From assembly GCA_016193585.1 (NCBI GenBank), contig JACPRW010000003.1, positions 193,649-257,648 of the forward strand: a stretch of DNA of 64,000 bases. Direction: 5' to 3'. A program made the position numbers and the translations under genes. Positions 38,821-44,506 of the stretch are shown here, piece after piece (within the stretch, counting starts at the first letter, position 1; each line of letters starts with the position of its first letter). This DNA is from Candidatus Aenigmatarchaeota archaeon (GTDB lineage: Archaea; Aenigmatarchaeota; Aenigmatarchaeia; GW2011-AR5). The notes under the pieces were generated by a model that was given only the letters and a program-made list of their open reading frames with translations, was not told where the DNA came from and ran no database searches.

Positions 38821-39384
38821 ATGTGCATCGAAATACTGAAGAACCCTGCAGGGGCGCTTGCAAAGGCAAAGAAAGTCAAGGATTATAAACACGTGGCCAC
38901 GGTTCTCCTCGAGGCAGCAGCGGCGGTCGGGGTTGCATTCGGCATCGCAGCCATGTCAATTACCCAATCGTATGCCGTGCTCGCGGCCGTCGCTGGCACG
39001 ATGTTCTCGCTTGCCATCCTGTTCATGCTCCTGTTTGCGCTGGTCGTGCACCTGTCCGTCCGCGCACTCGGCCAGTCGAAATACGTGCATGCGCTGACAG
39101 CGGTCGTCTACGGCATGGTGCACGTCAGCGCAGGCATGCTCGCAGCCGCTGCGCTGCTGTACGTCCCGTCAATCGGCGAGTATCTTGCCGTCGTGGTGTT
39201 GTTCCCGTTCCTTGCCGCGTCGCTTGCAGTTTTGTACCGCGGTCTTACCGGGCTGCTCAGCCTCGAGGCAGCAGCGGCGTTCGCCGTGATGTTCTTCTCG
39301 ATGCTCAGCGTTTTTCTTGCGGTGTTCGCGCTTCGCCTGCTTGTTGCCGTCAGCACACTCGCCTACTACGCCATGATGCTGTGA
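38821..39384 (+). CDS. Polytopic membrane protein, Yip1-like
   Basis: The 187-residue protein begins I-L-K-N-P-A-G-A-L-A-K-A-K-K-V, a beginning common in Yip1-domain proteins, and has five membrane helices very rich in alanine. Thus it resembles the product at 20819-21376 in design, though not closely in sequence. The gene precedes tRNA-Thr and starts 20 bases after the truncated F element. Confidence 0.6.
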   Translation: MCIEILKNPAGALAKAKKVKDYKHVATVLLEAAAAVGVAFGIAAMSITQSYAVLAAVAGTMFSLAILFMLLFALVVHLSVRALGQSKYVHALTAVVYGMVHVSAGMLAAAALLYVPSIGEYLAVVVLFPFLAASLAVLYRGLTGLLSLEAAAAFAVMFFSMLSVFLAVFALRLLVAVSTLAYYAMML

Positions 39385-39429: not shown

Positions 39430-39530
39430 GCCTCTGTAGCTCAACTGGCAGCTTTTCTCAAGAAGAAACGTCAGGAAAGAGCACCTGTTTCGTAAACAGG
39501 AGGTTGGGGGTTCGACTCCCTCCGGAGGCT
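39430..39530 (+). tRNA. tRNA-Thr (CGT) with a 28-nt insertion in the D-loop
   Basis: The acceptor stem GCCTCTG pairs with CGGAGGC (discriminator T). The anticodon arm CCTGT-TTCGTAA-ACAGG gives anticodon CGT. The T arm has the TTCGACT loop. The D arm GCTC...GAGC is interrupted after TGGCA by 28 extra bases. Without them the tRNA is 73 nt and normal, so the insertion behaves as an intron at a non-canonical site. Its ends (GCTTTTC and GAAAGAGC) can pair across the junction. CCA is not encoded. Confidence 0.85.
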
Positions 39531-39531
39531 T

Positions 39532-40596
39532 ATGGAAGAGAAAATTGATGAATTGTTTGACGCAATGCGTGCAGACGCCGTGCTGCTGCGCACGAACGAG
39601 CTGCACATAGACCCGAATTTCTACTATTTCGCCGGCATCTCGCGCCTGAAACAGCTGTCAAGCTTCCTCGTGCTGCGGAGAGGGAAAAAGCCGCTCGTCA
39701 TAACGAGCCCGCTTGAATACGGCGTGCTCAGGCAGCAGAAGCAGATTTCGGTCGTGTGCTACGCGAGCGAGCAGCAGCTGGCTGCGCAGCTCCGGAAGGC
39801 GCTCAGGGGAACTGTTGGCCTCAATTATGCCGCGTACCCGCTTGGTGCGTATCGCCGCCTCAAAAAGCTACTCTCAAGAAAGTCATTCGTTGACGTTTCG
39901 AAGGAGCTCGAGAAGGTGCGGGAGACAAAGACAACCGCAGAAATCAGGAAGCTTGCCGGCGCCTGCGCGATAACAGAGGAAATTCTCGCAGGCGTTCCCG
40001 GTATGTACCGGTCGGGCATGACCGAGGAGCAGCTCGCGTTTGAGCTCAACATGCGGGCGATGCGCGACGCAGAAGGCATTTCCTTCCCGACGATTGTCGC
40101 TGCCGGGAGCAACGCAGCAGTGCCGCACCACATAACAGGGAACAGGAAAATAGGCCGCGGTGTGCTGCTCGTCGATTTCGGCGTCATCAATGACGGTTAC
40201 TGCTCTGATGTGACGCGCTGTTTTGCCATTGGGAAGCCGACTGAACGCGAAATGCACGTCTACAACGTGGTGCACCGCAGCCAGCAGGCGGCGCTCGCGC
40301 TCGTTCGTGATGGCGTTGCTGCACGTGACGTTTTTCGCGCAGCGAATGCCATACTCGTCAAGGAACTCAAACAAAGCATGCTCCACAGCCTCGGCCACGG
40401 ACTCGGCGTTCTCGTCCATGACGTGCCCCACGGTCTCGGCGAGTCCTCGGCGTTCACCCTCAGGAAAGACATGTGCATCACCGCCGAGCCCGGCTACTAC
40501 AAGGAGTTCGGCGTGCGCATAGAAGACGATGTCGTCGTCACGAAGCGGGGCTGCCGGGCGCTTTCGAAAGCGCCCAAAGAGCTCACGAGATTATAA
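39532..40596 (+). CDS. Xaa-Pro aminopeptidase/prolidase, M24 family
   Basis: The enzyme removes N-terminal residues next to proline in the cytosol. The 354-residue protein has the creatinase-type N-terminal domain (about 1-125) and the pita-bread catalytic domain. All five metal ligands are visible in order: V-D-F-G, S-D-V-T-R, H-S-L-G-H-G-L-G, A-E-P-G-Y-Y and I-E-D-D. The start lies one base after the tRNA-Thr, so the message probably comes from tRNA processing or the tRNA promoter. Confidence 0.92.
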   Translation: MEEKIDELFDAMRADAVLLRTNELHIDPNFYYFAGISRLKQLSSFLVLRRGKKPLVITSPLEYGVLRQQKQISVVCYASEQQLAAQLRKALRGTVGLNYAAYPLGAYRRLKKLLSRKSFVDVSKELEKVRETKTTAEIRKLAGACAITEEILAGVPGMYRSGMTEEQLAFELNMRAMRDAEGISFPTIVAAGSNAAVPHHITGNRKIGRGVLLVDFGVINDGYCSDVTRCFAIGKPTEREMHVYNVVHRSQQAALALVRDGVAARDVFRAANAILVKELKQSMLHSLGHGLGVLVHDVPHGLGESSAFTLRKDMCITAEPGYYKEFGVRIEDDVVVTKRGCRALSKAPKELTRL

Positions 40597-44098: not shown

Positions 44099-44223
44099 TG
44101 CACCCATCGGGAATCGAACCCGAAACACAGGCTGTTTTCATACAATGGGATACCCGCACGATGAGCGAAGCGCTCGTGCGGGGTATTTGGGAAGCCCGTA
44201 TCATACCACTAGACCATGGGTGC
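44099..44223 (-). tRNA. tRNA-Gly (CCC) with a structured intron at 37/38
   Basis: On the minus strand the acceptor arm is GCACCCA with TGGGTGC and discriminator A. The anticodon arm is CGGGC-TTCCCAA-GCCTG and the T loop TTCGATT. About 52 bases separate position 37 from the 3' half of the arm, the canonical archaeal intron site. The intron is mostly one long hairpin, with CCCGCACGA pairing to TCGTGCGGG around GCGCTTCGC. Confidence 0.88.
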
Positions 44224-44379: not shown

Positions 44380-44506
44380 GGGCTCGTGGTCTAGCGGCTT
44401 GCAGTTGCCCGTGGATGACGCTTCCTTGACGTACCCTATCGGTTCACGAAGAATTGGTGGCGGTTCTGATTGGAAGAGGTCGGCGGTTCAAATCCGCTCG
44501 AGCCCA
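44380..44506 (+). tRNA. tRNA-Val (GAC) with two insertions: D-loop and 37/38
   Basis: The acceptor arm is GGGCTCG with CGAGCCC and discriminator A. The anticodon arm CTTCC...GGAAG has loop TTGACG followed by an intron of about 39 bases (44432-44470) at the canonical site. The T loop is TTCAAAT. The D-loop carries about 16 extra bases (GGCTTGCAGTTGCCCGTGG region), beyond any normal D-loop. Removing both gives about 72 nt that match the usual archaeal tRNA-Val(GAC) layout. Confidence 0.82.

Follow-up and report, generated by a model that had tools for sequence, protein, structure and literature searches.

Among the systems nearest to the locus described here are the noncanonical tRNA introns known from the Thermoproteales, N. 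equitans, ARMAN-2 and the Thaumarchaeota (PMC4033280, PMC8450103, PMC6379350). Introns average 0.84 per tRNA gene in the Thermoproteales compared with 0.21 in archaea overall, and Pyrobaculum calidifontis has 71 introns in 46 genes (PMC8450103). Reviews already count the D-loop or D-arm among the archaeal intron sites (PMC6379350, PMC12397907). The known endonucleases that remove relaxed introns efficiently belong to the (alpha-beta)2 or epsilon2 type and are mostly equipped with special loops (PMC6379350, PMC12397907), and the characterised alpha4 enzymes are of narrow specificity (PMC6379350).

We analysed a tRNA-Thr(CGT) locus in the window, the whole 64,000-nt stretch of DNA under study, which belongs to a genome of the Aenigmatarchaeota (DPANN; 1.17 Mb, 10 contigs, about 91% complete). 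By far the most probable explanation of this locus is that the sole tRNA-Thr(CGT) gene detected in the genome carries in its D-arm, at a site from 20/21 to 22/23, an archaeal intron of 28 nt that is spliced out by EndA and RtcB.

An interrupted D-arm in a tRNA-Thr(CGT) gene

The 101-nt gene at 39430-39530 on the forward strand encodes a tRNA-Thr(CGT) whose D-arm is enlarged by 28 inserted nucleotides (Table 1). All four stems outside the insertion are intact. The acceptor stem reads GCCTCTG/CGGAGGC, the D-stem GCTC/GAGC, the anticodon arm CCTGT-TTCGTAA-ACAGG and the T-arm GGGGG-TTCGACT-CCCTC, and the discriminator is U73. The original prediction, that this tRNA-Thr carries an intron-like insertion in the D-loop and that its stems are complete once 28 bases after TGGCA are removed, is borne out, with one G-U pair each in the acceptor stem and the T-arm. 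Because letters are repeated at the junctions, removal of the interval given in Table 1 or of either of its two equivalents yields an identical mature RNA, so that sites 20/21, 21/22 and 22/23 are indistinguishable from sequence.

Table 1. Features of the tRNA-Thr(CGT) locus and its neighbours (window coordinates).
Feature	Position	Strand	Basis or remarks
Yip1-domain membrane protein gene	38821..39384	+	Pfam PF04893; directly 5' of the tRNA gene
TATA-box-like element TTATAAAAA	39396..39404	+	Sequence; ends 26 nt upstream of the tRNA start
tRNA-Thr(CGT) precursor, 101 nt including U73	39430..39530	+	CCA not encoded
5' exon, positions 1-21	39430..39450	+	Acceptor strand, D-stem GCTC 39439-39442, D-loop AACTGGCA; boundary from sequence and comparison with intronless orthologues
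CUGGC, 5' strand of predicted exon-intron helix	39445..39449	+	MFE fold; partner GUCAG 39470-39474
Intron, 28 nt, GCTTTTCTCAAGAAGAAACGTCAGGAAA	39451..39478	+	Equivalents 39450-39477 (20/21) and 39452-39479 (22/23)
GUCAG, 3' strand of predicted exon-intron helix, intron-internal	39470..39474	+	MFE fold
3' exon	39479..39530	+	D-stem GAGC 39479-39482, variable loop, anticodon arm 39484-39500
3' exon, anticodon CGT	39491-39493	+	
3' exon, distal part	T-arm 39506-39522; acceptor 39523-39529; U73 39530	+	
Predicted exon-exon junction stretch CUGGCAGAGCACC			28-nt gap relative to the gene
M24 metallopeptidase (Xaa-Pro-dipeptidase-like) ORF	39532..40596	+	ATG 1 nt past the tRNA end

ARAGORN found no tRNA in the 101-nt form when introns were disallowed and miscalled it as 'Asp' when they were allowed; after removal of the 28 nt it reported tRNA-Thr(cgt) of 73 nt, a complete canonical tRNA. 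The Rfam model RF00005 gave a partial match of 22.8 bits, under its cut-off of 29. Since ARAGORN without introns and Rfam at its cut-off miss interrupted genes, tRNA sets of this kind are easily under-counted. A group I intron was ruled out, as the insertion has 28 nt compared with more than 200 nt for a self-splicing core and no such Rfam match was obtained.

The spacing of the TATA-like element upstream of the gene is compatible with an archaeal promoter. On the other side, the start codon of the M24 ORF follows so closely on the last base of the tRNA that 3' processing of the tRNA would produce a leaderless mRNA. In the loci of relatives that we examined, the vicinity of tRNA-Thr(CGT) showed no M24 homologue.

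The minimum free energy (MFE) fold of the precursor retains the acceptor, D and anticodon stems and extends the D-arm by a long helix, in which the D-loop and the intron form five base pairs (CUGGC/GUCAG) followed by a short hairpin. The flanks had been expected to pair across the insertion as in a bulge-helix-bulge substrate. This pairing does occur in the MFE fold but is not significant on its own: when the intron is shuffled, folds that retain the D-stem equal or exceed its number of exon-intron pairs in 11% of cases with dinucleotide and 25% with mononucleotide shuffling. The pairing thus agrees with splicing, yet by itself it is no evidence for it. The bulges are irregular and depart from the strict 3-nt/3-nt form, and the predicted element is a relaxed bulge-helix-bulge. 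In the mechanism that we propose, the precursor would keep its acceptor, D and anticodon stems while the intron folds back onto the D-loop through CUGGC/GUCAG and a hairpin of U-rich and A-rich strands. EndA would then cleave within both bulges and RtcB would join the exons, releasing a 73-nt tRNA-Thr that decodes ACG.

Intronless orthologues and presence/absence pairs

Ten genomes of the family have an uninterrupted D-arm in tRNA-Thr(CGT), and the D-loops of the orthologues are of normal size (8-9 nt). In two of these genomes, G005 (L023) and G011 (L026), a Yip1 gene lies directly upstream of the intronless tRNA-Thr(CGT), as determined by tblastn and, for L023, from the sequence. This shared upstream neighbour identifies their tRNA genes as the orthologous locus without the insertion.

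Genus g9 of the same family provides a presence/absence pair. Its member G017 (L137) has a 17-nt D-arm intron together with a 44-nt anticodon-loop intron, and the spliced form is identical at 73 of 73 positions to the intronless gene of G014 (L030) in the same genus. Pairs of this kind, in which the mature tRNA is the same with and without an intron, allow the gain and loss of introns to be traced directly. Family member G002 (L048) has the same tRNA sequence as L093, and G017 and L137 share their D-arm stretch. A search for the window intron sequence elsewhere in its own genome found no repeat.

Introns throughout the tRNA gene set

About 34 tRNA genes of the genome were delimited by T-arm and Rfam searches followed by acceptor-stem pairing. 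Counting as interrupted any gene whose length exceeds the maximum for a tRNA without an intron, we found introns in at least 31 of them. Three genes appear uninterrupted, namely C3:42005 (72 nt), C3:172460 (Phe, 74 nt) and C3:294557 (His-like, 71 nt, with a putative acceptor). Intron sites across the set include 37/38, the anticodon stem (Asn GTT at about 30/31 and Thr GGT at about 29/30) and the D-arm, where Arg GCG and Val TAC probably carry introns as well. The Aenigmatarchaeota thereby join the archaea with pervasive and oddly placed tRNA introns.

Several individual genes were recorded along the way. A tRNA-Gln(CTG) of the same genome (G000:C3:139528-139618, forward strand) has an 18-19-nt D-arm insertion. 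Within the window, a tRNA-Gly(CCC) at 44099-44223 on the reverse strand contains a 54-nt anticodon-loop intron, and a probable tRNA-Pro of 127 nt at 44380-44506 on the forward strand, with at least one intron, is missed by Rfam at its cut-off. Finally, a 79-nt intron stretch is common, at 97% identity, to two different tRNA genes, one on C7 near 42.9 kb and one on C9 near 114 kb. As judged from this similarity, the shared stretch suggests intron transposition between genes, which fits expectation given the transposition described in the Thermoproteales (PMC4033280).

The splicing enzymes

Both EndA (PF01974 and PF02778) and RtcB are encoded in the genome, and excision of the window intron very probably relies on this pair. 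A single EndA gene was found, outside the window (L080:1474-2109, reverse strand; C3 at about 171.1 kb). It encodes a 211-aa protein of the alpha type. Alignment with the enzymes of M. jannaschii, A. fulgidus and ARMAN-2 shows that both the catalytic Tyr and the catalytic His are conserved. In the window genome the third triad residue, K282 in ARMAN-2 (the K of VRK), is Ala, within RLAHNIRARM. The catalytic Lys is replaced in every member of the class with a readable EndA motif, by Ala in most cases and once each by Thr and Ser. The class enzymes also have a conserved insertion, GV.LKKGPK...EHT, between the Tyr and the His, and the broad-specificity N. equitans enzyme has an insertion in the Tyr-His interval too.

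That the sole EndA found is of the alpha type and without the canonical catalytic lysine counts against our explanation of the locus. One tentative reading, which we consider possible though on balance doubtful, is that the class-wide alpha EndA, with its lost Lys and its K-x-GPK loop, removes relaxed introns from nearly all tRNAs and represents a third independent route to broad specificity, the other two being the specific loops of the crenarchaeal and ARMAN enzymes. The catalytic lysine may even have moved to the loop, although it is speculative that a lysine of the loop takes over from the missing one. This class-wide change of the active site makes the evolution of broad specificity testable, and an EndA without the canonical lysine may be of more interest than the intron.

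Alternative explanations

The gene could be a pseudogene or decoy disrupted by the insertion, with a working tRNA-Thr(CGT) elsewhere. The weakness of the bulge-helix-bulge and the genome completeness of about 91% would agree with this. A better tRNA-Thr(CGT) elsewhere was one of two findings named in advance as fatal to the original prediction, and none turned up in our searches of the genome by tRNA family, T-arm, spliced DNA and D-arm pattern. Thr(TGT) and Thr(GGT) have genes of their own, and these are interrupted too. Moreover, ACG is a common codon, accounting for 85 of the 245 Thr codons in nine ORFs of the genome, the locus is syntenic with an intronless orthologue, and the T-loop and anticodon are as intact as the stems and U73. 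We therefore give a pseudogene very little credence. An error or chimera in the assembly is the least probable of the alternatives, and hardly credible. In its favour, the sequence is a draft of 10 contigs, and those relatives that have names were assembled from metagenomes; against this, the flanks run continuously into the Yip1 gene, which is syntenic, and into the M24 ORF, and similar D-arm insertions arise independently in other genomes.

A tRNA with an expanded D-arm might also work unspliced, the insertion being retained. The predicted fold, in which three stems are preserved and the long helix continues the D-arm, would suit such a molecule. In that fold, however, G18 and G19 would be locked in the exon-intron helix and the contact between D-loop and T-loop would be blocked. 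The normal D-loops of the orthologues also argue against retention, as does a related insertion that one member of a genus has and another lacks, with an identical mature sequence. Insertions in the anticodon stem or loop of other tRNAs, for their part, need removal. We regard retention as very unlikely, by a shade more so than a pseudogene. Four lines of evidence point to a D-loop intron in a functional sole-copy gene: the orthologue without an intron at this locus, the family's pair of genes with and without one, the abundance of introns among the tRNA genes of the genome, and the genes for both EndA and RtcB. We have high confidence, based on these sequence comparisons, that the insertion is an archaeal tRNA intron of the protein-spliced type and that the gene is not a pseudogene.

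Comparison with D-loop introns of other archaea

D-loop introns had been held to be rare and known mainly from a few hyperthermophilic and reduced lineages. This view proved too narrow. We scanned one genome of each species with a DNA pattern and obtained 78 loci, which were then checked for cloverleaf pairing. Among loci L092-L169, a tRNA-Thr(CGT) D-loop intron in a strict 20/21 register occurs on 43 contigs titled Methanomassiliicoccales or Methanomassiliicoccus, Thermoplasmata or Thermoplasmatota, or Euryarchaeota. The strict geometry consists of the D-stem, a 4-bp central helix between exon A14-G15-C16-G18 and intron CGYU, a 3-nt bulge on each side and an inner helix of usually 3-10 bp. 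The central helix is fully paired in 34 of the 43 and has A-G at the first position in the other nine; at L149 it shows a compensatory change from C-G to T-A. Matches in bacteria were discarded, being either tRNA genes in nested or tandem arrangement or chance matches. Similar-looking single matches came from Njordarchaeota (L145) and Micrarchaeota (L153). Insertions have thus recurred in the tRNA-Thr(CGT) D-loop across several phyla of archaea.

The window intron shares with the Thermoplasmatota/Methanomassiliicoccales introns the tRNA, position 20/21 as one of its three equivalent placements, and a similar length (about 13-31 nt in the 43 contigs). Their register was rejected for the window intron, which forms none of the four pairs: where they use the A14-G18 helix with CGYU and 3-nt bulges, the window intron sets GUCAG opposite C16-C20, with irregular bulges. 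Being off the strict register, it would represent either an insertion of independent origin or one that has drifted, and as the two show no evident sequence similarity, common descent is not established.

Closer to home, other Aenigmatarchaeota carry D-arm introns in tRNA-Thr(CGT), at L093 (G002), L137 (G017), L037 (G035), L125 and L133, and at L141, which has the same strict 20/21 geometry as the Thermoplasmatota introns. These agree with the window in gene, phylum (for L037/G035, by the class given in the genome collection) and sites 20/21 to 22/23. They differ from it in sequence, with lengths of about 13-40 nt, and some of the genes have extra anticodon-loop introns or another bulge geometry. 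A partial literature search found no report of tRNA introns in the Aenigmatarchaeota, or of the Thr intron in the Thermoplasmatota.

Compared with the noncanonical introns of the Thermoproteales, N. equitans, ARMAN-2 and Thaumarchaeota, the window intron is alike in being short, in its predicted relaxed bulge-helix-bulge and in its D-arm site, and its genome in having many interrupted tRNAs and some intron sequence common to different tRNAs. Unlike these lineages, the Aenigmatarchaeota were not found described as intron-rich in that partial literature search, and the sole endonuclease gene found here is of the alpha type rather than (alpha-beta)2 or epsilon2.
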